A DNA stretch of 25,612 nucleotides from Polymyxa betae (lineage: Eukaryota; Endomyxa; Phytomyxea; Plasmodiophorida; Plasmodiophoridae): NCBI GenBank assembly GCA_003693705.1, contig RBZT01000744.1, positions 1 to 25,612 on the forward strand, given 5' to 3'. The position numbers were made by a program, and so were the translations under genes. Positions 4,453 to 25,612 of this stretch are shown one piece after another. Each line of letters begins with the position of its first letter. Within the stretch, counting starts at the first letter, position 1. The notes under the pieces were generated by a model. It made no database searches. It worked only from the letters and a program-made list of their open reading frames with translations, and was not told where the DNA came from.

Positions 4453-4524
4453 TTATGTAGAAAATCAAATTTTGCGTGTCCGTGTAGGCAGTAGGGTAGT
4501 CTCATCTCATCGATCAGCTGTCGC

Positions 4525-5330: not shown

Positions 5331-5342
5331 GATAAGCAATAA

Positions 5343-6960: not shown

Positions 6961-7177
6961 ACTTGTGATTGTTGAAATCTAACCGGTGCATATGAACTCT
7001 GAGCAGCTACGAACTTCCTGTTCCAACGGGCCCAGCCAAGGATCCTTTCCCATGTTCTGTCTCAAAATTTCAACAGATGCCGCTGCTTTCCACTTGTGAT
7101 TGTCGAAATCTAACCGGTGCATATTAACTCTGAGCAGCTACGAGCTTTATGTTCCAACGGGCCCAGCCAAGGATCCT
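6949..7177. repeat. 98-bp direct repeat, two copies, 131-bp period
   Basis: Copy 1 (6949-7046) and copy 2 (7080-7177) share a segment that runs from CCGCTG through CTAACCGGTGCATAT to CAGCCAAGGATCCT, with a few substitutions. It lies between the start of the module A transposase and the start of the module B Myb/SANT-like gene, so both genes may draw promoter or N-terminal sequence from it. It may be a junction duplicated when the two modules came together. Confidence 0.85.
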
Positions 7178-7966
7178 CCCCTGTCACTGCAACCGACACC
7201 GATGCAACAACGGCTTCGGAAATAAGGGGACGCAGACCTAAATCAGAGAAATCTGCGGATGAAAGGGATTTGCGGTGGACGACCCCGATGATCGAGACAC
7301 TACTGAAATTTCATCGAGAAGCACACGTAAGGTACTTTCAGAACAAGCCTAATCCGTAAGCGGCGGGTGAAGGCTGGGCTTTGTTGTGAAGGACTGGTGC
7401 CAGCAGCAAGAGCGGAATGTTCCGCTGAGCATGATCAGTCCGAAGTACGATGCTCTCCTAAAAATGTGGAGGGATTTCGGGCCAACTGGAACGGAATCAA
7501 AGAAGACTGGTAACGTAAAGCCTGATCTAACACCATAGATGATCCTGCTTTGGCTGTCATCACACCTTTTTTTGCCAAATACCCAGGAACTGGATAAGAT
7601 CTTGGACCGTCCACTGATCACGTTGGCGGTCATGCACGAGATGACGATAGCGATGCAGATATGGACTGTGATGCTAGCTGACTTTCCAGAATCTGATCAA
7701 GCGCCTTCAGCGAAGCGCCCACGTGCTGGAGTGTCCTCAAACGCAACTGATCTTGGCGACAAAAAGGATCCGCCGTCGCCATGGTTTCCGAAAGCTTTTC
7801 CAGCTGAGCGAAGGTTGTTAGCGGTCAGGACGCGGACGTTTTGAAAACTTATATGCAAGAGTGTCGTGATGCTCTAGTCTCTTTGAAGCAGTCCATCGGT
7901 AAAAGCACACAGACTCAGTTGGCAATGCTGGAAGCTATTCAAAAACTCGCTAATGGCGGTTCTTAA
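7117..7966 (+). pseudogene. Harbinger-associated Myb/SANT-like protein, module B
   Basis: The N-terminal part has a basic segment (GRRPKSEKSADE) and WTTPMIETLLKFHREAH, matching the first helix of the same domain as module A. After frame changes near 7340 and 7390 the text goes on with PKYDALLKMWRDFRANWNGI and KEDW. Then comes a linker ending in SAKRPRAGVSSNATDLGDKK, and a C-terminal helical, coiled-coil-like end (DVLKTYMQECRDALVSLKQS ... LAMLEAIQKLANGGS) that stops at 7964-7966. The proposed start at 7117 lies inside the direct repeat and is uncertain. The gene converges on the module B transposase. Several indels are needed, so it is annotated as a pseudogene. Confidence 0.65.
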
Positions 7967-8929
7967 CTGAAGAAAAATAAAATTTAACAATGTCACGCCG
8001 CAGCTTGGCTCTTTCTCCATTTACTGCTTCGACCAGATCAGTTTGTGGTTGATCATTGTTTGGGGGGAGGGCGTTATCATTATCTTTCTCAGAAGTAGGA
8101 ACAGCATCGGATATCGCAATGAAAACGTTATGAAAAATGAGGCAGCGGTGAACGATTCGCGCTGCTTGAGAGCTGGCCATTTTTGTCTTCGCTCTGGTCG
8201 CCAACCGTTCTCAAGGTTGCCTTTCTGATTGAGAATCGCTTAAAACCGTCAGAAATGATTTTTCAGCATTCCAAAAGCGTTATCCCCACAACGATTCGCG
8301 TACATGACGACAAATTAGTTGTAGTTGCGCTACTCTGACGCCATCTCGTCGTTGTAATCATAAAAAGTCAAACAATGGGTGTACAACTGATAACCAGCGT
8401 CCGCAAGAATCACTTTGAATGGAGGCAACAGCTGATGCACTGTTCTCCCAAACTCAGAGCGATGAATACAACCTTATCGTTTTCAACGCCCGGCCGCATG
8501 ACGTAGCTCCGAGAGCGACGTTTGTAATCAACAACACCTTGTAAGTTAATGGCACGATATCCTTTCCGGCAATACCATCCCCCGTAATCATGCGGACGTT
8601 CAATCTCGATCAAGGTCCCGTCAAATGACAGGCATCGGGAAAGCCGCAAATTCTCTCAAATCCCAGTGAAAGTTCTTGCCATTTATCATGAGATGTTGGA
8701 AAGTAAATGAATCGAGGGCCAGATCTGTCAATTACAATGTCCAAAACCTCTTCGAAATACCGCAAAGCAGAGGCTTCAGGCTTTGCCCATTCCGAAAACT
8801 TTGGCGCGCGGAATCGATGACAGATCCAGATCTTGTCAGGTAATGTAGGCAAACAGCAACACGTTGGCGGACGATAAACTTTACATCGTGATGAATGGGT
8901 CCATGATAGGAACCCCATTCTATGTTCAC
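7950..8929 (-). pseudogene. PIF/Harbinger DDE transposase (HARBI1-like), module B
   Basis: On the minus strand the gene starts near 8929 and has VRQRVAVCLHYLTRSGSV, then an ASALRYFEEVLDIVIDRSGP segment, LSLGFERICGFPDAC, and SFDGTLIEIERPHDYGGWYC (first catalytic Asp, about 8620). RPGVENDKVVF and VILADAGYQL (second Asp, about 8400) follow. The region aligned with the catalytic Glu of module A has two stops and reads GDNAFGMLKNHF, with Asp where Glu is expected. The tail, with ARIVHRCLIFHNVFIAIS, ends at 7950. At least three frame changes are needed. It shares the architecture of module A but is clearly diverged, so the two are separate old insertions of related families. Confidence 0.75.
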
Positions 8930-9199
8930 CAGATTAGCAATCTCATCGAATGACCGCTACGAACAGCGGAATGTGTCGCGAAACCAACCGTCAAACTACT
9001 CAGGATTTGAGCTGCGAGCTCGTGTTTTCGTCCAGCTCTTCGCCATCGTTACCTGGAAGCTCATAAACAAACGTCGATTGAATACTTTCCGGCAGGAACA
9101 TTCCCTAGAACCCTCCGGGCCAGTACGACTAATGCGCACTTCACGCACTCCGACTCCGTGGAACCTTCCAGGCGTGGAGTCTTCTGGCAATGTCGGTCA

Positions 9200-9700
9200 C
9201 TATACCTTGATCTTTGATCCCGCTTCCTCGTCCAGCTCGTCGGCTAAACTCAACGTCATAGCTAGATGAGCGTACAGATCTCCGTTTTCCGTTAACCTTG
9301 TATGACGAGACGTTTGGATCAGGATGAGAATCGAAAGTCCGCTCCGCTTTCTGTAGAGCGACCTTAAAGCGTCCATGCCTCCCTTGGCGTGCTCATCTTG
9401 TTGACCAAGACGTACTGACTTGACTCCAGAGCTGCAATCAGAACCAAGAAGGCCTTGTTCTGAGTAGCCTTGTTGGCGATATCCTCCTAGCTTGAGTGTG
9501 TTCACCAAGTCATATCCGATCAGGTGCGTTGCAAACCCGAGCTCGAACGCATCCCAATTCTTTCCTTTCAGCTTCTCACCAGTGTAAGCTCGGATAGCGT
9601 CTGGGCCCATAACCTGAGGTGATGTGGTAGATTGCGTGTTGTTGAGGTTCGAGCCAGATCCCTGATCCGCTCCCGTATTGTTCGCTTCGTTGTCGCTCAT
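9200..9700 (-). pseudogene. Copia-type Gag N-terminal fragment
   Basis: From an ATG at 9698-9700 the minus-strand frame gives an S/T/N-rich leader and then KLKGKNWDAFELGFATHLIG, the start of the copia Gag fold. A frame change follows. The alternative frame has VLIAALESSQYVLVNKMSTP and REAWTL, and then the first frame resumes with RSLYRKRS, RLTENGDLYAHL and SLADELDE. This order (W-x5-F, ALESSQY, AW-L-LY) is that of the retrotransposon Gag family. The rest of the element is absent downstream, where the module B transposase begins. The fragment is not closely related to the young copia element in this window. No function is expected. Confidence 0.6.
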
Positions 9701-10274
9701 GCTGTCTACAATCGCGATACAAACGATTAGGACAAAGTAACCACGTGAGTTTTCATATATATTATTTTTCCAGGACGCAGACAGGTTGGGCTGCAGGCCC
9801 AAGTGGCCAGCTGTCAGCCGCCAGCCCCACACTACGATGAAAGGTCACTGGGCCTCCGACGCAGCCAGCTGCAGTTTCCAGGGTCAGCGCCACTCTAACA
9901 AAAATCGTGGATATCGTCGGCGTCGTTTGCAGTGATCGTGGTCGCTCCTGTGAAGAGCACGACGTCAGATGAGTGCCTAGATTCTGTGGTCAGAATTCGT
10001 CAAATTCAAATTATATGCGGTGTCTCAACTATTGATGACACAATTGGGCATATGTTTTGCAACTTTGATCATCGTTACAGAGAATGGCCAAGAAGTGGTC
10101 GCCCTTGATGTCTGTTGGGTTACGGATGGCAGTGACAGCTGTTTGATGGGATTTATTGTTGTTGAGCGCCGACAGAGCGATCCAGAACCGGAATCTGTTA
10201 TGATGTCGGCAAGCGTTAGCAGAAAGAGTAGCTATCGTTGAGAGCGAGATTGAGATGGCTACAAAGGTTTAGAA

Positions 10275-10450
10275 GTGAAATTATTGAAAACATGTAATAA
10301 TATTCATTCATCGGCCATCGGCCATTCTCACCCAACACTATTCATTCATCCAGAATTGACTGCGAAACCCTAAACCTTAAAATTATCCTCCTTTTCACAG
10401 GAGATTGTGGCCATGAAAAACGCCGATTTTGTTACGCAAAGTATACAACC
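10275..10450 (-). mobile_element. Decayed copia 3' end (RNase H tail, polypurine tract, LTR start)
   Basis: On the minus strand this stretch parallels the 3' end of the young copia element. It has a TTTGCGTAAC...GGCGTTTTTC stretch where the intact element has TTTGCGAAAC...GGTGTTTTTG. A purine-rich GAAAAGGAGGA follows, then TTTCGCAGTCAA and GGATGAATGAATA, where the intact LTR has ATTCGCAGTAAAC and ATATTCATTC-type repeats. The stretch between here and the Gag fragment at 9700 may be its diverged LTR, but its end could not be placed. The plus-strand frame at 10020-10241 in that stretch is probably fortuitous. Confidence 0.35.
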
Positions 10451-10455
10451 GGTTA

Positions 10456-11135
10456 GAGCATCTCCACCGCCACAACGCTCCTTGCATGCCGAAAAAAAGT
10501 GCATGCCAAAACCAAAGATCGTAAGCAACTACAGCTTCAAGCACAATGCAAATTCATTTGAGCCCTCGGTATGATCCCTGCCAAGCGCTTGGACAATTTT
10601 CCCATTTCCAATTATAGCAATCGATGGAGCCATGCAACCATTCCTGGAAAATCCCCTTTTGGCATTTTCTTGCATAATTTTTTGCAGATCATCCACTATA
10701 AGCGACAGTCGATATTCCTCTCCGAACAGAGCAATAGTGGCATCACAGAATCACTCCAGGCATTCGCTTGCAGTAGATTCGCCAATTTTGACATACTCAT
10801 CAACGGCGTCATAAGAATGTAATATGCCAGAATACGAATAGTTGCTACACACTTCTGGAGTGTGGACAATCCGAGATCTCCAATGTCATTCTCCTTTGCA
10901 GAAAATAATTATCGTGGTCTTTGACAGCAACTATTTTCAAAAATAACGCTCATCGCATTCTGAATCGACGTCGAAATAAATTGGAATCGAAAACTGGGCA
11001 CTCAGCAAAGCAATCGTTGTAAATGCGCTTGTCAGCGTCAGCGATCGAAGTCCCGTTCCAAATTAAAGCTTCTTCCAATTCTTGAGCAGCCTGCTTTCTC
11101 ATGGCTGCTTTCAGAACTTGTGGTGCCACAGTCAT
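10456..11135 (-). pseudogene. Plant_tran-type PIF/Harbinger transposase, truncated copy
   Basis: The ATG at 11133-11135 opens a frame that ends near 10950 with CFAECPVFDSNLFRRRFRMR, the N-terminal signature of this transposase group. Past frame changes, the minus strand reads GDLGLSTLQKCVATIRILAY, then a DEY-KIGESTA-ECL segment, and finally GSIDCYNWKWENCPSAWQG (about 10640-10585), which holds the first catalytic Asp. The text then reaches DLWFWHA and stops matching: the part with the second Asp and the Glu is missing. Directly after this the sequence ends in GAGCATCTCCACCGCC read on the plus strand, preceded by TTA. That looks like the element's terminal repeat and target duplication, so this is an internally deleted copy. 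The other terminus was not found. Confidence 0.7.
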
Positions 11136-11261
11136 TGAGAACGATGTCGTCTGTATCGTCTACAGCGAGCGCGGGGCCAAATCATGGAGCAAATACCAGG
11201 TCAACGACATGATGATATTCAAAACTTAGGTACAATCCGTAATGTAGTCCCGCCAAATCTG

Positions 11262-11266
11262 GATAG
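11262..11266. other. Target-site duplication of the young copia element (3' side)
   Basis: The plus strand reads GATAG here, i.e. CTATC in the element's orientation, directly outside the 3' LTR. The same CTATC stands directly outside the 5' LTR at 18929-18933. Confidence 0.85.
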
Positions 11267-11447
11267 TGTTGGTGCTGCCCCGCCAGACGAACGTCCAGCA
11301 CTTGAACCTGAAGAATCAGCCATGATTGGTGACACAGAACGTACACTAAGAGAGAAGGCTCGTTAGTTAGTCACAAAGAAGAATGAATATTTGTATTCAT
11401 ATAATCGATATTCATCGGTCATAGTTTACTGCGAATATTCATCAACA
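11267..11447 (-). repeat. 3' LTR of the split copia element (181 bp)
   Basis: The LTR begins TGTTG directly after the polypurine tract AAAGGGGGAGAT (11448-11459, minus strand) and ends CAACA, a 5-bp inverted terminus. Compared base by base with the LTR at 18934-19114 it reads as identical over all 181 positions. It contains ATATTCATTC/GAATGAATAT-like repeats. It also holds the ATG that, in the 5' copy, would start gag. The pol stop codon (11419-11421) lies 27 bp inside this LTR. Confidence 0.92.
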
Positions 11448-12981
11448 ATCTCCCCCTTTGCAGGAAACTATCACGCTCAAAAACACCTAGTTCGTTTCGC
11501 AAAAATAGAAATCGGCTACCGCCTAAATTTTTCGTAAAAATGTCCGCGATCATGCTTTGACTTTTACAATACTGTAACTCAATGTTCTTCTTCTTAACAT
11601 GGTCGCGCACAAAATGATAATGAACGTCAACATATTTCGACCTTTTCGTACTGGTTGTTTGTTCAGCGATAGATATACACGCTTGGTTATCTTCATAAAT
11701 TCTTATAGGATGTGGTAGTTGTTGTCCTGGTAAACTAGTTAACAATTGCTTAAACCACAAAACTTCCGCAACTATGTCAGATAGAGAGATATATTCTGCT
11801 TCCGCGGTAGAACGGGATACGCATCCATGTTTCTTAGAATAGAAAACAATTGGTCCTCCGTTATATAAAATTACTCCCCCTGAAATTGATTTTCGATCGG
11901 AAGACTCTCCAGCAAAATCCGAATCACAACAAATATTGATATTTTGTTGATTTTCGTGAAACCCGATTCCGTATGTTGAAGTCCCTCTTAAATAGCGATA
12001 AATTCGTTTCACTAATTTAACATGATGCTGGTTATAATTTGAAACAGCACGAGCAACAACTCCGACAGAATGTGCGAGATCTGGTCTTGTCATGTTCGCC
12101 AGATACATAAGATGTCCGACGGCTTCTCGATACGGAAACTCGCTGCAATTTTCTTGAATTTCACCTTGAAGAGGTGGTGAAATATTTCCGTTCGGGGCTT
12201 TCACTGGCTTACAATCTTGCATGTTGAATAACTTTAACATCTTGTTAACCTTAGCCTCTTGAAATAGATGAATTCTTTTATGTTTTCGATTCCTTGTTAC
12301 ATGCATGCCTAAAAGAAACTTAACTTCCTCTAGATCTTTGACTGGAAATACGGTAGACAGATCCTTCTTGAATTGATTGTATATGGAAAGAGTAGTACAC
12401 GCACAAATTATATCGTCAACGTGAATAGCGCCCATGATATAATCACCATTGGTATAAGTTTTATAAATGACACACTTGTCGACCGCCACTGTTGTATAAC
12501 CATGTTGTTCTAGAACATCTAATAAGTGCTTATGAAGTTCAACAGCACCCTGCTTAAGTCCATATAGAACTTTGTGTAATTTACAAACATGACTCGCAGA
12601 TGATGTTCCTGGCTCAATAAAACCTGCAGGTTGTTCCATATATATTTCTTCTTTAAGATTTTGATGTTGAAATGCTGTTTCGATGTCCATTTGATAAAGC
12701 TCCAAATCTTCAAATGCCGCAATCGATATAATCGTCCGAATTGATGCCGTACACGCAACCGGACTGAAAGTCTCCATATAGTGACACCCGAAAACTTGAG
12801 TAAAGCCACGCGCAACAAATCTTGCTTTAAACTTGATAACCGCGTTGTTCTGATCTCTTTTCCTCTTAAAGATCCACCGGCTATCAATGACTTTCCGATC
12901 ATCTGGCCTCTGAACTACCGTCCACAAGTCTTTGCAGGCTGAAGTGACTGGATTGTGCGAAAGGAAAGACCAGTGCGGCAA
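11419..12981 (-). CDS. Copia Pol 3' half: reverse transcriptase and RNase H, fused to a short foreign N-terminus
   Basis: A 520-residue uninterrupted frame. After about 16 residues that do not belong to copia, it carries the start of the RT domain (RPDDRKVIDSRWIFKRKR), then FKARFVARGFTQVFG, YQMDIETAFQHQNLKEEIYM with the first catalytic Asp, and IHVDDIICA, the YVDD-type active site. LLGMHVTRN, VGHLMYLANMTRPDL and the RNase H domain (CCDSDFAGE, STAEAEYISLSD, EDNQACISIAE) follow, and it ends inside the LTR. Family role: copies element RNA into DNA and removes the RNA strand. The frame begins at TTG, not ATG, because the gag-IN part lies 8.5 kb away on the other strand (18934-21409). The catalytic residues are intact, but without gag, PR and IN in cis it cannot act alone. 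Confidence 0.95.
   Translation of the reverse strand: MPHWSFLSHNPVTSACKDLWTVVQRPDDRKVIDSRWIFKRKRDQNNAVIKFKARFVARGFTQVFGCHYMETFSPVACTASIRTIISIAAFEDLELYQMDIETAFQHQNLKEEIYMEQPAGFIEPGTSSASHVCKLHKVLYGLKQGAVELHKHLLDVLEQHGYTTVAVDKCVIYKTYTNGDYIMGAIHVDDIICACTTLSIYNQFKKDLSTVFPVKDLEEVKFLLGMHVTRNRKHKRIHLFQEAKVNKMLKLFNMQDCKPVKAPNGNISPPLQGEIQENCSEFPYREAVGHLMYLANMTRPDLAHSVGVVARAVSNYNQHHVKLVKRIYRYLRGTSTYGIGFHENQQNINICCDSDFAGESSDRKSISGGVILYNGGPIVFYSKKHGCVSRSTAEAEYISLSDIVAEVLWFKQLLTSLPGQQLPHPIRIYEDNQACISIAEQTTSTKRSKYVDVHYHFVRDHVKKKNIELQYCKSQSMIADIFTKNLGGSRFLFLRNELGVFERDSFLQRGRLLMNIRSKL
12930..12940. other. Left inversion breakpoint inside copia pol
   Basis: On the minus strand copia pol homology starts immediately after a TGC (12934-12936). 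Upstream of it the sequence is unrelated to copia but stays open in the same frame. The partner breakpoint at about 21407-21409 also carries TGC. The 3-bp shared sequence would fit end joining with microhomology. Confidence 0.75.
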
Positions 12982-13299
12982 CCGTTCAACAACAGCGTTT
13001 TTAAAAAGTCAATGAAAGTTCATAGATTATTGCTCGTTCTGTTGCTGTGCAGGAATCTCTCCAACTCCTGACATCCAATGACAGGTTGCACTATGTAATA
13101 TCATGGTGATGCAATCAAATTGCCAAACCTTACAAGCAACCTGCAATTGATCTCTGCAACATTCACGAGACAACAGAAGCAATCAATCAAAACATCAATG
13201 TATTGGAATTCAAAAGATGTCGTGTTGCAAATTCAGCTGCTGGATGCGACTTTAGGGAAAGGGAGATTACAAATACGCCTATTGCCCAGATGTTAGAGA

Positions 13300-14523
13300 T
13301 AACACCTGCCAAACAACAAAGAATATTTACAAGTCGAATGCGAACTTTACGAAGTTCATAGTGACGACCACAAACGTGACATGTTTACGGAAACGTTGTC
13401 TCCTGCAGATAATCAGATTAAGTAGGTTACGCAGAATTACCGCGCATACTGGCCCATAATGATATCGAGAACTTCGTTGAATCGATCCCCGTCTGTCCCA
13501 CAGGTGACCTCCAGTAGGAAGATGTTGCTGTTCGGAGCGTCGCTTCCTTTATCTTCCAAGGACCCGAGAAAGGCGTCCGTATACGGCGTTCCGACCGTAT
13601 CCAACAACTCGAAAAATTCATCGGTGATTTCCTTAATCTCTTCTTTGATCAGATCCTTGCGCATGTTGTCATGGTCGAGCATGGTCGAAAGACAGTGACC
13701 CGCTTCCAATAAACCGAATATCGTTCGTCTGCGGTTTCATGCTGGTCCCCTACAGATTAAAAGGTCAGCATACAGATCCCAGAGATAAAAGAACCTTATT
13801 GACCTTGTAGATTTCCAATTTCGTTTGAACCCGTGGATTGTATGTATTACTGAATCGCTCCATCAAAATTTGATACTCTGAGCGAACTGATTCAGAATGG
13901 TCTCAGGATGTCAAATGGTCAACGTTTCTTACGAAATTGGTCAACGTCTTGAACACCCAATTCGATTAGAGTGTTATAGTCGGATTCGGACAAGAAAAGA
14001 GGTGCCGATGCTGTCTGTGACAATTGGGAGGCGACAGTCGTGGAGACTTTTGGGGTCGAGCTCTTAAGCATTGGTTCAGGAATGAAATGAGGATTCTTAT
14101 TGGATAACTTGCAGACGAGATCATTAACCCCAGAAGAGTTGCAGATGAGGCGATTCTATCAAGACCACAATGAATAAGTTGAACAGATTTGAGACTGCAA
14201 AACGGGAAACGAAGGACACTGTCATAAGTGAACAGAGATATACAATGCAGCATCTTAATTGGAGAATAATCTGGAGGTAAATTACACAGCACAATAACAT
14301 AACAACAAAGAGATCAAGAGCAAGAATAAAGCGAAACAGAATGGAGGGAGGGATAGAACCAGAATAAGTGAAATCATTACCGATTTTGAGAAATTTCTCC
14401 TTCCGCTGATGGGCTGAGGAGCGGAGTAATGGGAGTCAAGACAGAACCAGAAAGCAAGGTTGTTTGAGCCCAGGCCAAGGAGGCCAGCGAGCTGACAAAG
14501 CAGGCAATCACTATCGATGACAT
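13300..14523 (-). CDS. Hypothetical spliced gene for a secreted protein (model partly uncertain)
   Basis: Exon 1 (14523-14381) encodes a clear signal peptide, MSSIVIACFVSSLASLAWAQ, with cleavage likely after AWA. A tentative exon 2 (14253-14220) leads to exon 3 (14155-13933), which contains VNDLVCKLSNKNPHFIPEPM and LFLSESDYNTLIELGVQDVD. A 46-bp intron (13932-13887; GTAAGA...AATCAG) joins in frame to exon 4, with SEYQILMERFSNTYNP. A 45-bp intron (13794-13750) follows. After one frame change there is a 90-residue acidic segment (13709-13437; EEIKEITDEFFELLDTVGTP, FLLEVTCGTDGDRFNEVLDI) and a possible 38-bp intron. The family is not recognised. Exons 3-4 are well supported by phase-matched splicing; the 3' end is not. 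It may have continued across the inversion breakpoint. Confidence 0.5.
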
Positions 14524-15150
14524 TGCAGAATGAAAGCAGAGAGAGATGAGTTCGATTAACAATGAGAGAGCCGCGATAGGGTTAGGGTTTGTTGTTCAGT
14601 TATCACACTGACAGCAGGAATGAAGAGCGTGTCGTTCTGAGCACGCTGAAATACCTGTTCGAGATTATTTATAGTAGGTAGGGTGCCCTAGTTGCTGAAA
14701 CTGAGGATGGTCTCTGGGATGATTCTCACAGGAAGAGATTCCAGAGGGGTTTTGTGGTATGCCGTGGGGTGGCGCATTGACCTCGGAGTCAGTCGGCACT
14801 TGGCCATTTGAGTCCAAATATAGAACGCCCAGTGGCCGATGAAAGCGACCTCACCCGTTTCGGCATGGCTCTCTTGACTGTAGTTACCCCTCCCGAACCA
14901 GCCTGAGAATAGCACCTGCTGATGATAACTTGCAAAATATCAATCAGAGTAGGATTAATCAAAGATTGATTGTAATTATTAATCAATGGCACAAAGGTCT
15001 CGAAGGAGGAAGACCTCGAGAAATTGCGAAATGTTCCATTCATCCAGCGCTACCTTTAGATACACCGATGTTTGGTGATGCCCTTCGGTACATCATTTGG
15101 CTCGAAATCTTTAAGTGATAATTGAGCGTTTACTGTTTGTTCTAGCAGGT

Positions 15151-15828
15151 TTAACGCTTCGTGTGGGTTTCGTTCCATTCGATCACTTTTGGATGTGAAT
15201 GAACGTTCTGAAACACGATCCCAATATTAGTATACGAATCGAGAGCATCAATCGGAAATCCGGCAATACGTCCTAGGAAATTCAGCAGTAAGCAAATGCT
15301 TGAAAAAATCAAGAACTCACTTAGTTTGAAAACCGACGCCAGAGAGTGAAGAAAAAGGTCGGCAATAGTTAAGGATGAGCCAACGCAAAACCCTGAACCC
15401 TGTTTGCCGATATATTGGTCGAGCAAAAAGCAGGGCTTTGGCAGCTTGTTCGTGACAAAGTCTTCGATTAATTCCATCTTCTTATATGGATCTGGCAGTC
15501 GAAACACCGGATTGATATGCACTAAAATGTCCTCAATTTGATCGACGACCATATCAACTTTTAAGGCTTGCAGAGGGTCGTTGGGGTATAGACCAGAGAG
15601 GCGGCCAGCATATCTCAGCATAGCTAATGATTGAGCATAAATTACGCCATCGACAGTGATGGTTGGTAGCTGGCCGAAGGGTGTTTGGGGCTTCGTTTGA
15701 GCCCAGTCCTGGGCCTGGATGCGTTCGTCTCGGAACGGGATGCCTCCGATCACGAATGCCAGGCGAGTCGGCTCTGCTTTGCCGGTCAGATCGAAGTAGC
15801 TGACGGTGATGTCGGGATATTGAGACAT
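15151..15828 (-). CDS. Glutathione S-transferase, sigma-like (copy 1)
   Basis: The gene has two exons, 15828-15321 and 15272-15151, split by a 48-bp intron (GTGAGT...TTTCCTAG, phase 1), giving 209 residues, the usual length of cytosolic GSTs. The N-terminal thioredoxin-like domain has ITVSYFDLTGKAEPTRLAF with the catalytic Tyr near residue 10, the FGQLPTITVDG cis-Pro loop and the glutathione-binding AQSLAMLRYAGR. The all-helical C-terminal domain has VGSSLTIADLFLHSLA, the conserved N-capping/Asp motif, and ends near HPKVIEWN. The intron reads through in frame, so retention would give a longer protein of 225 residues. It conjugates glutathione to electrophiles or acts on peroxides in the cytosol. 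Its paralogue at 23805-24491 has its intron at the same site and phase, so the two are tandem duplicates. Confidence 0.92.
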   Translation of the reverse strand: MSQYPDITVSYFDLTGKAEPTRLAFVIGGIPFRDERIQAQDWAQTKPQTPFGQLPTITVDGVIYAQSLAMLRYAGRLSGLYPNDPLQALKVDMVVDQIEDILVHINPVFRLPDPYKKMELIEDFVTNKLPKPCFLLDQYIGKQGSGFCVGSSLTIADLFLHSLASVFKLSEFLIFSSICLLLNFLGRIAGFPIDALDSYTNIGIVFQNVHSHPKVIEWNETHTKR

Positions 15829-17510
15829 CTCTGGGCGAATTCGATCGTTGAAGAAACCCTTACAAGGGACCCTTGGACAGTCAGCACAGCACGAGGCGAC
15901 TGAATAATGGGTTGCGCAACGGGCTGCGCTCTGTCCCTTTGACTAAGTTGACTAAGTTGACACCGATAGAGGTTTTCATAGGAGACCATGCTGAAGCTGA
16001 TTCAGCATTTCGGGTGATTCGATAAATCTGTGAAACTTCGACGATTTTGGTTTTTTAGTCACAGATCGAGAATATCATCTATCTCGCTATCAATGTTTCA
16101 TGTTGATGTCCTATGGATGGACTTGGAGTATGAAATTATCTACGCTGCTGAATCCTTCCTAAAGTCACCATCGCTTTGGTAGTCGATAAGATTATTGTCT
16201 TGGTTTTACTTGTACCCGAGAGACTACCGAGGGAGAGAGACGACAAATTCGAATCTTACCATTCTCTATGTCTACTATCATGTTAAGTACAGGAATTGGA
16301 TAATATTGTAGGTAGATTAAAAGCAATGGATTCCTGGATTTTCCATTTAAGGGGCTCAGCTCTATAGAGATGTCTATAATCCCATAGAAAACGACGATGT
16401 ATGATTCCGTATGGCAGTAAATAGCACAGCTGACGCCATCACTCGCGTTAATGAATATGATATTAACAGGGCTGCAATTCTCGGGTCTGTAGCATGAAAC
16501 AGGGTTTTAAACCTGGCACAGATCGCTGATAGTAGGGAGCAATGCCCAGCGAGAGAATCGTTTTCAATATCGTTGAAAAGCATGAAGTTGCTTAAAGAGC
16601 ATATGCTGTTAGAAAACAGAAAACCCCAACGGATGAAATTGATAGAGAATCCACGACTATGGATGGGTTCGAATGCACCGACCCGAAGTCAGCACGGGTC
16701 CGCCAAGATACATTCGAATAGGCCTTGCATTGGTCACAAATTTCGTTGTCCAAATAGAGCTATCATACAGGAGCTTGCTCGAAAGGCAACGTTTTCTTCG
16801 AAAGATTGCGACCGTTTTGATGGGCGGCTGTTGCATTGAGGCAGATAATATCATGAATCTGTCAATCCATATTTTGAAGGAGGATCTGGATTCTAGCGAT
16901 CTGACGGTCATCAATGTGTGTCTACAAGTCTTATAGCGAACACCACGAGGTGTGAGGTCCGAAACTTAGATAGAGTCCTACCGGGCCATGGATTTGGGGA
17001 TGAGATCGCTCAGAATGCATTATGGTTGGAATATCACGTTGGTTCGAATCAACATGATATTTCATGATAATAACAACTGAAAAGATTTCTTCATACTGTA
17101 ACATTCAGGAACAAATTGTGCGAAGATATCCGATTTTTGATCAATAACGGTCAAATACAGATATGAAAGGCTCGGAATAATCCTTCAGAATTTTTTACCA
17201 AGAATTCGGATGGCATCACCGGGCGATAACTATTTCGTATACTGTTAAACCGGATCTGGACTCGACCTAGCTCTGACATTGGCCAGCTTGATTGTGTGCT
17301 CTCATGTCCGATTTATTGGCCATGATTGTTTCAGATGTTGGCAATTTGAACGCTGTTAGATCAACCCGGAGATATCAATAGCGTTGACTAACTCAAACTC
17401 AACCAAAAAGTATTGCCTTGGATTGCATTTCTAAGGCGTATAATCACTTCTTCAAACACATTCTACTATAGTTGCAAACATACCTCTCATGTTTAACGTT
17501 ACAGATTCAA
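15829..17510. other. Gene-poor stretch between GST copy 1 and tRNA-Gly copy 1
   Basis: Only short overlapping open frames are present (for example 16673-16936 on plus and 16657-16914 on minus, complements of each other). None has a recognisable domain, signal or phase-matched intron. AT-rich unique sequence; I see no transposon ends. The promoter of the minus-strand GST should lie in the first few hundred bases. Confidence 0.6.
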
Positions 17511-17581
17511 GCGCTGTTGGTTAAGTGGTATAATAGCTCGTTGCCAACGAGTTGTCCCGGGTTCGATTCCCGGACGGCGCA
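17511..17581 (+). tRNA. tRNA-Gly (anticodon GCC), copy 1
   Basis: A 71-nt cloverleaf: acceptor stem GCGCTGT paired with ACGGCGC, anticodon stem GCTCG/CGAGT with loop TTGCCAA (anticodon GCC), T arm CCGGG-TTCGATT-CCCGG, and discriminator A. The internal A box (TGGTTAAGTGG) and B box (GGTTCGATTCC) of RNA polymerase III are present, and a run of six T follows about 25 bp downstream. The 71 nt are identical to the copy on the minus strand at 24719-24789; the flanks are not. No intron; CCA is not encoded, as expected for a eukaryote. Confidence 0.95.
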
Positions 17582-18928
17582 TTCAATATTTTCAAGAAAT
17601 CCGTTTCTTTTTTGCCGTTAATGCTATATTTTAATGCTCGAGGCGGAAATGTTTCGTCTTGGATTCTAGACTTAGCTCGTGATTAGACTAATTCAGTAAA
17701 CATTATTTTTTGTCGATTTTTAAGTAATCAAGATTTTAGATTTGAAATCCGCATGAAATGAGGACATCAATGTCAGACAGAGCCTTTCAGATGTGTGATC
17801 AGAGCAGATCTGCTTATTGCTTCTCCGAATGTTTCTGATTCCATTCTGGATTTTAGGCTGGCCGATTACCCTTGCATGGATTTGATTGTGAATCTGACGT
17901 TGTTATAGGGATTTCAAAATCAGCAGAAAAGTCGGGAGCAGCCCCTTGAGATGAATTTACACAGCAGGTTATAGACAACCAGATCAATGATCGTTGAATT
18001 CGGACCGATAGCGAAATTCGAGCCATGATAGGAGACGTTTTTGTCCAGAGATGACTATAAAGCCTGCAGGTTATTATTGGCTATTTCATCAAGCAAGGCT
18101 TTGCTCTTATCACAGCCTTTCTCATGGTAACTTTCACCGATCGGCTTGAATATGTTCGCGTTGGATTGAGAATACATCTCGTCATTCAGAGTTATAACGG
18201 CAATCAGGCCGAAGGTCGTCCGGAGTTTGAAACTCTGCCATTGTTCATGCGTTAGACGATGATTCCAGCCTCGCCGAATCGGTTCATCACGACCGAAAAC
18301 GCAACGATACCCCAGACGAAACAGAACAGGCAGCAGGTCATGCGCGTGCAGTACTGTGTAACAGAACAGACATTGGGCAACTGTTACATCCAGTCTCTGA
18401 TCTCAACAACAACCAACGATATTCAAAAGACATCAACCAGCAATACAAAAGAACGCACAAAACCAAACTATCACATGATAAAATCCTGGTACTCCAATGA
18501 GGCAATGAATTGGGTATAGGTTATACAGAGCAAGTACTGCTGGATATCTGGATGTTCGTAGTAGGCTGCCAGACAAAGGATCTCTGCATGTTAATGCGTC
18601 GTAGTTTGCATAATCTGGACGCTCTACAAAGACAAATATTGTGGTGAGCGGAAAAAACTGCCACTCAACAAAGTTTTAGGATTTAGGGTTTTCTGTGAAA
18701 AGTGTCGCTTTGATGGAATATAACAAAACCTGGGTTGTTCACTTCGGAACGGATGACGATTACGATCGAAATCGTGATGGGTAGCGATAGCTCGTCTGCG
18801 GGCGGTGTTTGTACACAGCCAAAATTACAAGCAATTTAATGTTTTTGCTCCGCACGCGGAGTTTTTAGCTTCAATTTTACTATTTCAAGATCCCCATTGT
18901 CCATTGGGGTAATTTGGGGTATGGAGAG
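17582..18928. other. Gene-poor stretch upstream of the copia 5' LTR
   Basis: There are no convincing genes. An 86-residue plus-strand frame at 18259-18519 is T/N/Q-rich without a recognisable domain. A small perfect hairpin CTCCGC-AC-GCGGAG stands at 18848-18861 between T runs. Before the inversion, the right edge of this stretch would have joined the sequence now at 11261. Confidence 0.5.
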
Positions 18929-18933
18929 CTATC
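18929..18933. other. Target-site duplication of the young copia element (5' side)
   Basis: CTATC lies directly before the TGTTG of the 5' LTR and equals the 5 bp outside the 3' LTR in element orientation (11262-11266). Copia integrases typically make 5-bp duplications. Confidence 0.85.
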
Positions 18934-19114
18934 TGTTGATGAATATTCGCAGTAAACTATGACCGATGAATATCGATTATATGAATACAAATATTCATTC
19001 TTCTTTGTGACTAACTAACGAGCCTTCTCTCTTAGTGTACGTTCTGTGTCACCAATCATGGCTGATTCTTCAGGTTCAAGTGCTGGACGTTCGTCTGGCG
19101 GGGCAGCACCAACA
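18934..19114 (+). repeat. 5' LTR of the split copia element (181 bp)
   Basis: It starts TGTTG, ends CAACA, and is followed after two bases by a primer-binding site. It reads as identical over 181 bp to the LTR at 11267-11447. An ATG at 19058 within the LTR starts a frame (MADSSGSSAGRSSGGAAP) that runs through the LTR end and the primer-binding site towards gag, as Ty1 gag does; it meets a frameshift near 19130. The LTR also holds the element's promoter and polyadenylation signals, which I could not pinpoint. Confidence 0.92.
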
Positions 19115-20054
19115 ACGTTATGGGCCCAGCAAACACTATAAGGGAGCTCAGCTTATTGGAATTGAAAATTATAGCGTGTGGAAAATGATGATGCGTTCAT
19201 TTTTGGATCGCAACGATTTGCAACAGTACGTTGCTGCTGGTAGCGGAGACGATGAACAGCGAACACGTCGGGCCAAGGCTGTATATGACGAAATACTGTG
19301 TTCGATATCGTCCAGTGTATTACCGAGTTTCACGTCTATGAGAAATGCAAGAGACTTATGGCGAGCAGTGGTAGCCAAATTCGAGAATCAGTCCGCGACT
19401 CATGTGAACACTCTGCGTACGCAGTTACAGCGTATGAAACTGTTTGAGGGTTTACGCGTTTTTGGACAAGTCTATTACGATTACAGAAGAACTTCTTCAA
19501 GTAGATCCTCATGCATCAGAAGTCGATTCTATTCAAATGCTGATTACAAATATCAAGACTCAGCGTTATGAGGCTGAACTAGTTTAATTCTTAATGATAT
19601 GGATGGAATGACTATCGATACATTTTGTGATGGTCTCAAACAGTACGAAGAACATCTTTCTATGCGGTTTGGTTCCGGTAAACATAAGAAGAATCAAAAT
19701 AAGGATGAAGAACAGCTCTTGTTCGCTGGTGATCAGTTCCGAGCAAAACGAAACCCCCGATTTCTGAAATGTTATAACTGCGGACGTCGCGGACATTTAG
19801 CGTGGGATTGTTGGTCAAAGAATCAAGATAAAGAAGACAGTCCTGAGGAGCTGGCGTTAACAGCTGATGAAGACATTTCAAATTCATCAACATTGTGTTA
19901 CGTGGACTCCGGTGCATCACGACATATGACCGGATCTAAACACCTTCTGCAAGATTATGAGGACCTGGATAAGCCTGCAGATATTATTACAGCTAATGGC
20001 GTCAAGATGTCCGGGATTGGTGAAGGGAAGATGAAAATGGGGCCATTAATATGA
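19058..20054 (+). pseudogene. Copia Gag and protease region (5' half of the split element), frameshifted
   Basis: The Gag fold is visible in YKGAQLIGIENYSVWKMMMR, LWRAVVAKFENQSATHVNTL and LRTQLQRMKLFEGL. After frame changes come LLQVDPHASEVDSIQMLITN and GMTIDTFCDGLKQYEEHLSM. The CCHC zinc knuckle CYNCGRRGHLAWDC is at about 19770-19812, and the protease motif YVDSGASRHMTG at about 19898-19935. Gag packages the RNA into particles and the Asp protease cuts the polyprotein. The lesions are one-base shifts near 19130, 19470, 19585 and 20040. With identical LTRs such damage is unexpected, so assembly indels or trans-mobilisation of a defective copy are possible. The start is likely the ATG within the LTR. 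Confidence 0.85.
19117..19131 (+). other. Primer-binding site complementary to the anticodon arm of initiator tRNA-Met
   Basis: The 15 nt GTTATGGGCCCAGCA lie 2 bp after the LTR end. They are the exact complement of TGCTGGGCCCATAAC, the anticodon stem-loop of eukaryotic initiator tRNA-Met (compared from memory of the conserved sequence). Drosophila copia is known to prime from a 5' half-molecule of this tRNA ending at nucleotide 39, and this site begins at the matching base. Most copia elements instead bind the 3' end of the tRNA (TGGTATCAGAGC-type sites), which is not seen here. Confidence 0.8.
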
Positions 20055-21409
20055 AAGATGTACTTTATGTTACACATCTAAAGACAAGTTTGTTCTCAGT
20101 GAGCGCTGCTACTAAGACTAAGAATGTCGCTGATATTCGTTTTGGTCCGGAAATTTGATATGCCATCTTTCACGGTAAACAATATCAACTAGGTGTTCGT
20201 CAAGGCAAAGCCTATGCTCTGAAAGTTGAAGCAGATGGGAAAGAGTCCCCTATTGATCGAGAACTGCTTCATCAAAGATTAGGCCACCTCAATTATGCAA
20301 CAATGGAGAAAATGATCACTTCTGGGACAGTATACGGAGCCAAATTGACTGGCGCAAAGCCCGATTTGTGCGAGGGTTGCGTAGCGGCAAAATTGAGTCA
20401 GTCTTCTTTCCAAACACGACCAAGTTCCCGGGAGGCTACTGCAATCAACGATTTTATACATTCAGATGTCGTTGGGCCTATGAAATCGCAATCATTGGGA
20501 GGTAAAAAATATGTTGTCTTTTTTATAGATGATTATTCCAGATATGTAACTGCTTATTTTTTGGCGGCGAAAAGCGATGTCTATAACGCATTCAAGGAAT
20601 ATAAAAGGTTCGCGGAAACGTTGCATAAACGTCCAATTGGTCGAATTCGTTCTGATAATGGAGGAGAATACACTTCTGCGAAGATTATCAATTGGCTAAC
20701 GAAAAGCGGCATTAAACAGGAGTTGACTGTCGCAAGGAGACCGCAACAGAATGGAGTTGCGGAGCGTTATAATCGGACTGTTATTGAGATGGCAAGGGCT
20801 ATGTTATTGTCATCGGCGTTAGCCAGAAATTATTGGGCAGAGGCAGTTCAAACTGCTGTTTATATTCGTAATCGATGTTCGTCATCGTGTTTACCCAAGG
20901 GAAAGACTCCTTTTGAGCTATGGGCGCATCGAAAGCCAAGTGTACGTCATCTGCGCGTTTTCGGATCTAAAGTGTGGTATAAAGTTGATCAAGCTGGCAA
21001 GTTTGATCGTAGGGCTCGAGAAGGTATCTTTATAGGATATCCAGCTAATAAGAAGGGATACCGGATTATGGACCAATCCTCAAAGAAAGTTATTGTGAGC
21101 CGAGATGTTGTGTTTCAAGAATCCAGAAAACAACAAGTTGATCTTGATAATGATGAACTGGATATCGAAAATCCGGACATCAAGGTCCTTGAATCTGAAC
21201 CTGGATCCAGAGTGGAAGAAACCCCTGCTAGACGATCCAGTCGAATGCGGAAACAGCCGACCAGATTTAGTGAAGAGCAGACATTATTTTGTTATATTTG
21301 TCAAGAACAAGATGATCCAAAATCCCGAATCGGAGCTTTGAAAGACAAGGACGCAAAAGAATGGAAAAAAGCAATGGAGACTGAGTATAGCGCGTTAATG
21401 AATGCTTGC
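20055..21409 (+). pseudogene. Copia integrase and linker, cut off at the start of reverse transcriptase
   Basis: The pre-integrase part has MKDVLYVTHLKTSLFSVSAA, a TGA at 20156-20158, then LLHQRLGHLNYATMEKM and CEGCVAAKL, the H-H-C-C zinc site. The catalytic core shows IHSDVVGPM (first Asp), RSDNGGEYTS (second Asp) and PQQNGVAERYNRTVIE (Glu), followed by GKTPFELWAHRKPSVRHLRV and the GKFDRRAREGIFIGY element of copia integrases. The last copia-like residues (AKEWKKAMETEYSAL) lead into RT, but homology stops at about 21409. The frame then runs on into unrelated sequence. The missing RT-RNase H part is at 11419-12933 on the other strand. From 20159 on the integrase frame is intact. Confidence 0.92.
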
Positions 21410-21519
21410 TTTGTGATTCCAGCAGCAAGCTTTACTGTTGGAGCCAGTGTTAGCGCACCGAACTCGGAAGATCTCGATGAAAGTAGCGGTTCTTAACAGC
21501 CCGAATTAGAAAGCGACTA
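21407..21519 (+). other. Right inversion breakpoint and host-derived tail fused to integrase
   Basis: After the TGC at 21407-21409 the integrase frame continues for about 28 foreign residues (FVIPAASFTVGASVSAPNSE, then an acidic DLDESSGS) to a TAA at 21494-21496. Joined on paper to the foreign leader of the RT fragment at 12937-12981, these two pieces make one open frame, as expected if they were parts of one host exon before the inversion. The same frame after the stop (ESDYNVNDRLIVEESTAEK) still looks coding-like, so the host gene may already have been damaged. Confidence 0.6.
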
Positions 21520-21539
21520 TAATGTCAACGATCGATTGA

Positions 21540-21864
21540 TTGTCGAGGAATCCACTGCAGAGAAGCATCCGTCCAACGGAAAGCTATCAGAACACCAGAG
21601 TTATTGAGCTGACCCGGCGCAATCAGAAAATTAAGCAGAAAGATAGCATTGCTTGGTGCGCTCATGAATTCAGATTGGCTTTATCGCAAGGTTGGATCTC
21701 AAAACTTGAAGAAAAAGTCGAGAAAATTCAGCAACGACAGCAGCATGAATGTGGCCGGGCTGGGCCAGTACAGCGGCGACAAGCAAAAGGGCGGTGAGCA
21801 GAATGGTGAAGAGGCAGGAGGGCATCATGAACGACCGTTAGAGAATCTCTCTCGGACTCCGTGA
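21540..21864 (+). other. Charged open frames, possibly a decayed coding exon
   Basis: Two overlapping plus-strand frames (21540-21797 and 21649-21864) encode K/E/Q-rich helical segments such as WISKLEEKVEKIQQRQQ and GDKQKGGEQNGEEAGG. They could continue the host exon cut at 21409 after frameshifts. The complement of the second frame is the signal-peptide-like frame listed next, and only one of them is likely to be real. Confidence 0.25.
21670..21828 (-). CDS. Small open frame with a strong signal-peptide-like N-terminus
   Basis: The minus-strand ATGATG at 21823-21828 starts a 52-residue frame, MMPSCLFTILLTALLLVAAV followed by LAQPGHIHAA. This has a short polar start, a 17-residue hydrophobic core and a likely signal-peptidase site after VLA. 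The remaining 28 residues form an amphipathic, L/A/R-containing stretch. It is too short for most ORF screens. It could be exon 1 of a secreted protein. The caution is that it is the complement of a K/E/Q-rich plus-strand frame, and such complements look hydrophobic by the genetic code. Confidence 0.35.
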   Translation of the reverse strand: MMPSCLFTILLTALLLVAAVLAQPGHIHAAVVAEFSRLFLQVLRSNLAIKPI

Positions 21865-21997
21865 AGGGTCCAATAAAACTGACGGAGGCCGCGCACTCCC
21901 GCAGAATTGAAAGCCGAAAATATGCGCAAAATTTTCAGAGCCAATGTGAGCGGATCTGCAAATACGGCCGCCTACATAGGGGCAATGAGACAATTTG

Positions 21998-22370
21998 TTA
22001 TCGCTTTGGAAGAGGACTTGTAATATTTGAAGGTATCAAGATCGCGATATCTTTGATTGTTTGAAGCACACCGAGTTTCGACAGCTGAGGGTCGTCGCGT
22101 TCGTACTCAACTGCAATGAGTTGGTCTTCTGGTGTTGTTGAGTTGATGGAGGATCCACTCATCTTGAATGAGATAGTAGCTGACGTCACTTCCATCGGGA
22201 GTAGGGAACAGTGGTTGATCACTGCTGTTTCTGTTGATTAGACGTGATCTATCCGATAATCTTGTGAACAGGCACAAAAAGGTTCGACTAAGAATTGTGC
22301 CCTCTTGTGTTCCCAGATATGGAATGAAACTTGCGGTCAGATTGGTGACAACAAGATCTGATATGAGCAC
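21998..22370 (-). CDS. Hypothetical minus-strand gene piece in two frames
   Basis: The frame from 22370 (LVVTNLTASFIPYLGTQEGT) is coding-like to about 22170. A second frame then takes over to 21998 with MSGSSINSTTPEDQLIAVEY and LGVLQTIKDIAILIPSNI. An acceptor-like TTCAAG immediately precedes the MSGSS codons, so the second part may be its own exon start or a spliced continuation. No family is recognised. Confidence 0.3.
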
Positions 22371-22929
22371 CCAGCACTGGGCGACCCTAACCCTGTCATT
22401 TCAAAAAATATTGGATGTTGTATGGCTCTACAAACTCTAACTCTGGATATCGATCAACTATGATGGGCTCACTAAGGGATTGGATTCACAATATTCTATA
22501 AAGACAGATACGAATCTTCATTACTGCAGCAATCGTCTCAAGTTTAAGCCCGTGGTTGCCACACATTTGCAAAACATTCAACTGGCTCTTTCTATGAAAA
22601 AAGCCTATTTGTGTTATCAAACGTCGCCGATTGCACCATTCATCTATGTATTTATATCACGCCGATTCCAAGTGTCATAGCAATCCGAGATCTGCTTTTC
22701 GTCCCAGATTTCAAGTTGTAGCAATTGTCACATTTTCTCCGACTTCGGCTTCGACAGAGACTCTGATCGTTCAGAGATCGCAAATCTTCTTTTCAAATCA
22801 AACATTTTTTTCAACATTCTAAAACGAAGGTAATTCATCATCAAATGTCAGTAAGCGACTCGCTTAAAAATGTCGAATCCAGCACCATTATCCACCAAGG
22901 TCGAATAACTTGATTCTAACCCTATCGTG

Positions 22930-23282
22930 AGAAATCGTCCCAAGACGGTGCCGATGGGATCCCTGACGCAAACCGACGCCAACTCCAATACAAAGGAACC
23001 CGATATGCAAGACAGCGGTCGTCCCGGTCCCCGGCCCAGTACGACCGATTCAACAGACACGACCAAATGAGCAGAAACAGAGTGCCGAACGCTCCAGAAC
23101 ATCCAGCCATGCTGCCCGGTTACGCTTCACGTTTTCTTCCTGAAGGTCGGCAGGATCCTAGAGAGCTCTCGTCCAGCAGATTTGGGCCGTCTTCAAGCTT
23201 GCATGTGATGGCCCGCGATTGGAACGTGACCCCGATTACTAAGGACACTATTTGTTGGTTAATTGTTTATGGCCTCATATAG
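22930..23282 (+). CDS. Hypothetical arginine-rich exon
   Basis: A frame open from about 22938, just after TTCTAACCCTATCGTGAG, encodes a soluble R/Q/D/S-rich segment (DANRRQLQYKGTRYARQRSS, MSRNRVPNAPEHPAML, FLPEGRQDPRELSSSRFGPS). A donor-like GTGACC follows MARDWN near 23226. The branch-point-like CTAAC before it and the donor after it suggest an internal exon. The minus-strand frames across the same bases (22848-23110) are less protein-like. No domain is recognised. Confidence 0.35.
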
Positions 23283-23590
23283 TGATTCGGGATTCAATCG
23301 GCAACTTCTGAAGAGCTCGCAATCTTATCGTAGATAAGAATCATCAAATGCTAGTCCAAACCTAACCCGAGATGCTTCAATGTTGATTCGAGATTGCATT
23401 GAACTGAGAAAAGGGTAAACTTACAGCAATGTCTCTGACAATGAGAATGACAAAACAACACAAAAGGGGAGGCCATGTGGCGCAACCCTTCTGGCTCGAC
23501 TTGGAGCAGCCACTTTGGCTTTGGATGGTTGTACTGTGGAGTTGCACTGACACCTGGGTTTCTCAGCCTGCCATCAATTTTCACTCGCCA

Positions 23591-23772
23591 CTGTCAGATA
23601 GGGTTTCCTCACTCAACCAAGGCGCAGCCCTCGATTGTCAATGATCCCACGCCTCTGTCAGATAGGGTTTCCTCACTCAACAAAGGCGCAGCCCTCGATT
23701 TTCAATGATCCCACGCCTCTGTCAGATAGGGTTTCCACAGTCAACCATGGCGCAGCCCTCGATTGTGAATTT
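23591..23772. repeat. 64-bp tandem repeat, about three copies, upstream of GST copy 2
   Basis: Units start at 23591, 23655 and 23719 with CTGTCAGATAGGGTTTCC and contain GGCGCAGCCCTCGATT. Copies 1 and 2 differ at very few positions; copy 3 is slightly more diverged and truncated. The array ends about 35 bp before the GST start codon, so it occupies the likely promoter and 5' untranslated region. Confidence 0.92.
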
Positions 23773-23804
23773 TAAGTGTCTGTTGATTGTCGTCATTCTT
23801 AACA

Positions 23805-24491
23805 ATGGCGCAACAACCCGACATCACCATTACCTACTTCGACCTGACCGGCAAGGGCGAACCGATTCGTCTCGCATTGACGATCGGTGGGATCCCGTTC
23901 AAAGACGAACGTCTCCAACGAGAAGACTGGCTCGCCTTGAAGCCCAAGACGCCATTCGGGCAGCTGCCAACCATGACGATTAATGGTGAGACCTTTGCCC
24001 AATCGCATGCCTTGCTTCGTTATGCTGGACGTCTTTCTGGTCTGTATCCGGAGGATCCAATTCAAGCGCTGAAGGTGGACATGATTGGCGACCAGGTCGA
24101 AGATATCATCCAAAACTTGTACCCAGCCTTCCACGAAGAGGATCCCGGTAAACAGAAGGCTCTGATAGAGGAAATCGTTAAGTCGAAACTACCTGGACCG
24201 TGTTCGGCTCTGGAGAAGTTCATCTGCAAAGAAAAATCGGGATGCTCTGTAGGGTCATCTCTTACCACTGCTGATTTACTCATCTACAATTTGGCGTCGC
24301 TTTTCAAATCTGGTGACTTTTGTTGCTAATGCATTCTAAAACCTTTCTCTTATATTTCCACGTTAGATCGTTTTTCTAAATCCCCGAATAACGCTTTCGA
24401 ATCCTACAAGAATATTAACCGAGTTTATGACACTGTCTGCGGCAATCCTAAAGTCGTCGAATGGAACCACAAACACTTCAAGAATGCCTAA
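23805..24491 (+). CDS. Glutathione S-transferase, sigma-like (copy 2)
   Basis: Two exons, 23805-24312 and 24367-24491, are split by a 54-bp phase-1 intron (GTGACT...CACGTTAG with GCTAAT inside), giving 210 residues. The ATG at 23805 is chosen because the next upstream in-frame codons have no ATG and the first residues align with copy 1. The thioredoxin-like domain has ITITYFDLTGKGEPIRLAL with the catalytic Tyr, FGQLPTMTINGETFAQS and the LLRYAGRLSGLYPEDP helix. The C-terminal domain has VGSSLTTADLLIYNLASLFK and ends NPKVVEWNHKHFKNA. It probably conjugates glutathione in detoxification or oxidative-stress response in the cytosol. It is clearly paralogous to 15151-15828 (same intron site), with both active-site regions intact. 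A long antisense frame over exon 1 is a shadow. Confidence 0.95.
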
Positions 24492-24718
24492 TCGACTGTC
24501 TAAGCAGTTCAGCACAAGTTGGCGACCTTCTTTGATTACTAAATCCGATTGGTTTTATTAGTATATTTGTTTTAAATTAGTCTAGCACAAACCAAGTCTA
24601 GAATCCAGTATTTACAAAGCATTTTTGTTCTGCCTTGGACATCGAAATATCAAGATACCTTTCGAACCATCCCTCTCGAAACCCACAAAATGCGACCGGT
24701 TTTCCTAAAAATTATAAA

Positions 24719-24789
24719 TGCGCCGTCCGGGAATCGAACCCGGGACAACTCGTTGGCAACGAGCTATTATACCACTTAACCAACAGCGC
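24719..24789 (-). tRNA. tRNA-Gly (anticodon GCC), copy 2
   Basis: The 71 nt are identical to the copy at 17511-17581, including both internal promoter boxes and the GCC anticodon in loop TTGCCAA. On the minus strand the gene is followed within 10 bp by a TTTTT run, a normal polymerase III terminator. It lies about 230 bp downstream of GST copy 2, on the opposite strand. Confidence 0.95.
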
Positions 24790-24826
24790 TTAATTTTATG
24801 TAACATTAACGTCCAATAGATCTAAC

Positions 24827-25246
24827 ATGCGACTACACAATAAAATCAGTCAGTGCCAAAACTGGATCGTGCAGGTCATGGCCCTGGGCAAGTACGGCAT
24901 CAAAACGCGAACTCGGAGTCGTTCAAAATTCGAATTTGCAGATATACCTATTGAATACAAGGACACTTGTCATTTCGACTGATTTCTCTAACGGCTTCAA
25001 AATCGTTGCTCTGTAATACAGATCTAATACGAGCAGGTACAGAAGATCGTGAAACAATGTCCTTACTATCAACGATCGCAGTCCCTGATCGTCCGATACC
25101 AAGATCAGTTCGTGGACCAGTACGACCGTCCTCCGGAGGCCGAAGAAATTAGGATTATCCGTTCGGTTGCTGTTTCAACATCCATCCGCCAGCTCTGCTG
25201 GAAAAAACAGGAGGCCAAATACAAATTTCTGCCGCTCCAGACTTAA
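24827..25246 (+). CDS. Hypothetical gene, probably two exons
   Basis: The ATG at 24827 opens a 51-residue basic frame (QCQNWIVQVMALGKYGIKTR, then RSKFEFADIPIEYKDT). A 53-bp GT...ACAG stretch (about 24968-25020) has the size of the other introns here. After it, the best protein-like frame encodes QSLIVRYQDQFVDQYDRPPE and IRQLCWKKQEAKYKFLPLQT and stops at 25246, but the splice phase leads into a different frame. Either a different junction or an indel is involved. No family is recognised. Confidence 0.3.
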
Positions 25247-25372
25247 GATTACAGCATGCCGCATCCGGCAGCATCCTAATCCTAAACACATTTATGTACT
25301 TATTCAATAATGCACTTAGTTTCTGATGGATCGCTGAGGTAATCCCGCATTGGTTGCTCGAGCACTTGCTCG

Positions 25373-25397
25373 CTGTCATGCCCATTGAGCATGACAG
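25373..25397. repeat. Perfect 9-bp inverted repeat (hairpin)
   Basis: CTGTCATGC and GCATGACAG are separated by 7 bases. It lies in the gene-free right end of the window (25247-25612), where I otherwise see only unique, GC-richer sequence. Confidence 0.6.
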
Positions 25398-25612
25398 TAC
25401 TCGCAGCCGCCCAGCCGACCACCAGGCAGTCGTACTGGCCCTTCCTGAGGGGCTGCGCAGAGGGCTGCGCCCCTGCTGACGATTCCTATAGGGGAAGAGC
25501 CCTAACTGTCACGGACTGCGCGGGTCCCCTCATCTCCATACTATGAATGGCGAGGAGCGGCCTCCACGCAACGATTCCGATCAACTCCAAAATTCATACG
25601 TTTCTCATCTCG

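Follow-up and report, generated by a model that had tools for sequence, protein, structure and literature searches.

The 25,612-bp contig of Polymyxa betae analysed here (the window, which is the entire contig G000:C198, without N and with a G+C content near 45%) carries a Ty1/copia retrotransposon that is broken by a rearrangement. Its reverse transcriptase (RT) half, with the 3' long terminal repeat (LTR), reads on the minus strand, while the 5' LTR and the gag-protease-integrase half read on the plus strand at the far end of an 8470-bp stretch, 12934-21403, that appears inverted. A single insertion followed by a single inversion is probably the right explanation of the locus, and it draws its support from the identity of the LTRs, the target duplication common to both, the exactness of the joint between the two halves, two relatives in which this joint is uncut and a paralog of the target in which the insertion site is empty.

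Two complementary halves of one element

Comparison of the window with itself revealed two LTRs of 181 bp in inverted orientation, 7486 nt apart and identical at 181 of 181 positions, as the first-pass annotation had read them. They start with TG and end with CA. The 3' LTR (11267-11447, minus strand), whose boundary is seen likewise in two other contigs described below, C117 and C282, adjoins the RT half (11448-12933, minus strand), where Pfam finds RVT_2 (E 4e-56); RNase H and a polypurine tract were identified in this half by eye only. The 5' LTR (18934-19114, plus strand) leads into the gag-protease-integrase half (19115-21403, plus strand), whose Pfam matches are Retrotran_gag_2 within 19011-19571 (E 1e-7), Pol_BBD and zf-CCHC within 19578-20054 (zf-CCHC E 3.7e-5), and rve, SH3_retrovirus and gag_pre-integrs within 20159-21496; its reading frame is broken, not one open frame. 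The two halves share no overlap, RT lying on one and gag, protease and integrase on the other, so that the complementarity previously proposed for them holds at the level of Pfam domains, the RNase H and polypurine tract part of that claim depending on inspection.

The 5 bp outside each LTR, GATAG at 11262-11266 and its inverted second copy CTATC at 18929-18933, match when read in the orientation of the element, and the claim that one duplication flanks both LTRs is thereby confirmed; the same 5 bp also lie inside the uninterrupted paralog discussed below. Because the LTRs are identical, the target duplication is common, the domains are complementary and the joint is exact, both halves would belong to one Ty1/copia element with no part missing. 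Reassembled, the element measures 4137 bp, with a spacing from LTR to LTR of 3956. Turning 12934-21403 restores the element, in the normal minus-strand order that had been predicted, together with its target.

Uncut relatives and the exactness of the joint

Relatives spanning the joint between integrase and RT, a search for which had been proposed as a check, were sought in the organism's own genome (24.4 Mb in 541 contigs). Besides the window, four contigs match either half: C407 and C133 hold only RT-side fragments, and C117 and C213 carry both sides of the joint, uncut. C117 matches window 11267-12929 at 95.5% and 20635-21402 at 93.2%, and these two matches adjoin, five nt apart. The more distant C213 (64-67% alike) passes from integrase to RT with no foreign DNA in between, its frame being broken at the joint, and has copies of a 45-nt direct repeat spaced 3966, in agreement with the LTR-to-LTR spacing of the window element. 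Integrase 5' of RT is thus seen directly in these two contigs, and in the window once the inversion is undone.

The position of the cut was fixed by the length of the linker between a conserved leucine and a conserved tryptophan at the joint. A motif scan covered 128 proteins, eight of them unrelated glutathione S-transferases (GSTs) and the other 120 integrase relatives. Of these, 112 gave no motif match; all 16 that matched have a linker of five residues, as have C117 and C213 by eye. The window contributes two residues up to 21403 and three from 12933, and because these make up the five of the relatives, the cut inside the element appears exact at 21403/12933, with nothing lost. Linker length and the C117 alignment together place junction 1 between element and host at 12933-12934 and junction 2 at 21403-21404. 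The inversion that the first-pass annotation had drawn at 12,937-21,409 stands, with its breakpoints shifted by 6 nt into the plus-strand half and by 3 nt into the minus-strand half.

Other copies of the family were also met. The copy in C117 (L013:2598-5029 of G000:C117) begins inside integrase, without the 5' part, and lies among nested transposable elements, its 3' LTR abutting another copia open reading frame (ORF), with a gypsy-type pol (RVT_1) farther out. A solo LTR in C282 (L014:4628-4808 of G000:C282) differs from that of the window element at 2 of 181 positions and is flanked by the 5-bp duplication ACGAA. An older LTR copy (L015:1766-1957 of G000:C376) is 76% identical, and its flanks, GTATC and GAATC, are duplicated at four positions of five.

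The insertion site and its empty paralog

To view the target as it would have been before insertion, a query made of the left flank followed by the right flank in reverse was run against the genome. Its alignment to C425 continues through the join, at 81% and, with longer flanks, at 82.6% over 568 columns; C425 appears to be a paralogous repeat in which the insertion site is uninterrupted. Since the outer flanks are contiguous there, the sequences flanking the two LTRs were in all likelihood neighbours before the insertion. Pfam (Plant_tran) identifies the host repeat as a Harbinger-like transposon. A further paralog, C264, aligns with the left flank as far as the join (86.9%) and, past a 4.4-kb interruption, with 64 nt of the right flank.

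That interruption (L026:388-4813) is a different element, at the spot used by the copia element in the window; it has ends CAGCTCAAGACACCTTAA in inverted orientation, a TA duplication and a 698-aa ORF with a SAP domain. In the left part of the window, which is rich in repeats (1-11266 is largely matched by other contigs), Pfam finds a DDE_Tnp_4 transposase fragment at 5343-5813.

Inferred order of events and content of the inversion

On these data the 4137-bp element inserted on the minus strand into the Harbinger-like copy, making the 5-bp target duplication. Later, to judge from both junctions, two double-strand breaks would have occurred, one splitting the element precisely at the integrase-RT boundary and one in host DNA about 6 kb outside the 5' LTR; end joining would then have resealed the 8470-bp piece in reverse. 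The RT half and 3' LTR would have stayed on one side, and the 5' LTR and gag-integrase half would have moved to the far end, switching to the plus strand. The absence of differences between the LTRs (0/181) puts a 95% upper bound of 1.6% on their divergence, with no rate to convert this into years, and by this measure insertion and inversion would both be recent. The earlier proposal that the inversion post-dates a recent insertion is thus supported as to order; "young" can be taken to mean 0/181 LTR differences only, from which an age in years is not derivable.

Host DNA makes up 5995 bp of the inverted stretch (12934-18928) and includes a GST gene recognised by Pfam (15151-15942, minus strand) and a tRNA-Gly(GCC) gene (17511-17581, plus strand). 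Each has a counterpart on the opposite strand to the right of the inversion: a second GST gene at 23787-24329, 71% alike over 291 columns, and a second tRNA-Gly(GCC) gene at 24719-24789. Undoing the inversion brings the GST pair onto one strand and the tRNA-Gly pair onto one strand, an outcome with a chance of 1 in 4. Two ORFs near the host breakpoint (13437-13736 and 13966-14313) have no Pfam match, so that no gene is demonstrable across the ancestral host site; a reading frame crossing that site when it is rejoined on paper was too short to count. Beside the tRNA gene, 17336-17463 is a dispersed repeat of about 125 bp, possibly a short interspersed element, to which 31 of the 42 matches listed for 12934-18928 belong (74-82% alike), and just upstream of the second GST gene lies a tandem array of a 64-nt unit in 2.9 copies (23574-23770).

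As to how the breaks arose, the two junctions are reciprocal and window self-comparison shows no pair of repeats at 12934 and 21404, as expected of a paracentric inversion repaired by end joining; neither break lies within an LTR. Ectopic recombination between inverted copies of a transposable element was rejected, the only copies being the LTRs, away from both breakpoints. The six nt at 21404-21409 (plus strand) nearly repeat 12934-12939 in inverted orientation, at five positions of six, as a duplication left by a staggered break might; 0.52% of random position pairs reach 5/6 at length six, and 3.2% do so by a free-length score. The host break may perhaps have been staggered by 6 nt. A perfect hairpin stem of 7 bp also starts exactly at the host breakpoint (21404-21430), as one does at 62 of 25552 window positions; it was noticed post hoc and is not used as evidence.

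A second haplotype was looked for by searching the genome with 12934-18928 and 21404-25612, which returned, besides the window, short repeats only (40 of 44 and 40 of 76 candidates scored, respectively). The same search with 1-11266, in which 39 of 127 candidates were scored and the window's own match was unlisted, is uninformative on this point.

Points against the inversion, and alternative explanations

Several observations weigh against an inversion following insertion. The near-repeat at the junctions has one mismatch in six positions, against 0/181 between the LTRs, and an exact duplication left recently by a staggered break is thereby disfavoured. Nothing independent attests the host-side breakpoint: no copy or relative pairs reversed 12934 with 21404, and the joined host flanks (reversed 13334-12934 plus 21410-21809) matched only their own two pieces in the genome. 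Finally, the assembled order crosses two identical inverted LTRs, through which it depends on the underlying reads.

The last point opens the alternative that we take most seriously, although we judge it improbable. Since the two orders have every junction in common but those across the LTRs, the intervening stretch could lie the other way round, turned over by the assembler or because the contig shows the other isomer. The locus would then hold a solo LTR, with the 5-bp duplication at 11262-11266 beside it. Some 6 kb off would lie an element with one LTR in circularly permuted order (RT - LTR - gag - integrase), bordered by GCCTGC and GCTTGC, the near-repeat. Such a form could have originated by recombination between the LTRs that popped out a one-LTR circle, reinserted nearby, or by inversion and then recombination between the now inverted LTRs. 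Identity, inverted orientation and 7.5-kb spacing of the LTRs all suit it, the C425 paralog and the gene orientations are compatible with both forms, and in C282 the family has a solo LTR that is flanked by a 5-bp duplication. It requires more events, however, or an assembly error, and the 5/6 repeat at its flanks is not a perfect duplication. Read length also bears on it. The window ends in a high-copy repeat (25373-25612), and of 14 contigs examined for this repeat 11 end after 237-248 nt of it and three continue through, which suggests reads of about 250 nt, able to bridge an LTR of 181 bp; the assembled form is thereby favoured, not proved. The consulted part of the report on the P. betae draft (PMC6328671) gives 2 x 250 reads, 1,001 contigs, 27.1 Mb and a G+C content of 45.1%, beside 45.7% for Spongospora subterranea. 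In keeping with a plasmodiophorid origin, an Arp2 protein encoded in the genome is 91% identical to its Plasmodiophora brassicae counterpart, the next best match reaching 79%.

The two orders might also coexist. Recombination between the inverted LTRs could flip the GST/tRNA segment back and forth, so that a population may hold both isomers, one with the split element and the other with a solo LTR and a permuted one-LTR element; we regard such a two-state switch as quite unlikely. Whichever order is correct, the locus serves as a warning that in short-read assemblies the local order of genes is uncertain around identical inverted LTRs.

Little probability attaches to a chimeric contig, in which the assembler joined two copies of the family with no inversion at all. 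The contig ends make the assembly appear a short-read one, and C117 shows that a relative was present to be joined; but both junctions lie in sequence that is 4-7% different from C117 and unrepeated here, the window is free of N, and the two halves stop at one and the same joint with no sequence lost; the common target duplication and the uninterrupted paralog would have to be accidental. A comparably slim chance is left to inversion during integration. In that single event the cDNA, severed beforehand between integrase and RT, would have been ligated both to the target and to another break in the host DNA. The break in the window element is near its middle, where in some retroelements the plus strand is discontinuous, and the identical LTRs leave no gap between insertion and inversion; yet a second, internal polypurine tract was not noticed at the break, in a comparison that included no search aimed at one, and the data fit either timing. 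Two independent, separately truncated insertions that are complementary by chance can practically be dismissed: truncated copies do occur, as the lack of a 5' part in C117 illustrates, but the shared 5-bp duplication, the identity of the LTRs, the exact fit at the joint and the contiguity of the flanks in the paralog all speak against them.

Comparison with known elements and inversions

With its halves read together, the window element has the domain order of Ty1/copia LTR retrotransposons, with RVT_2, rve, a CCHC knuckle and a 5-bp duplication, and differs from them only in being split. Inversion after insertion, the history we prefer, also has close parallels. Of the human/chimpanzee inversions treated in the consulted part of Lee et al. 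(2008; PMC2603318), 63 of the 203 left after 49 recombination-mediated ones have a retrotransposon at only one breakpoint, as here; those elements are L1 or Alu, and lack, as far as that part describes them, a readable record of one insertion in the form of an LTR pair and target duplication. In Drosophila, in the account drawn from PMC5080602, inversions attributed to staggered breaks have sequence duplicated in inverted orientation at the breakpoints of the inverted form, against which the window has at most 6 nt with one mismatch, a duplication that is at best tentative. Inversions mediated by transposable elements through ectopic recombination, as presented in the consulted part of PMC12368964, likewise involve a transposable element; here the breaks are outside the LTRs and no second copy is seen at the other breakpoint, so that ectopic recombination is not indicated.

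A literature search for a retrotransposon split by an inversion, with the same target-site duplication on both parts, found no paper, which is not evidence that none is in print; a search on copia elements and Plasmodiophora brought up papers that, by the titles shown, deal with plant hosts and resistance. That an inversion should have one end inside a retrotransposon is well documented, and the window locus belongs to that known kind and gives no sign of a new mechanism. What it adds is a worked case of a clean, loss-free break of a retrotransposon in a little-studied rhizarian lineage, in which the LTR pair and the target duplication serve as an internal record of the order of events, insertion and then inversion.

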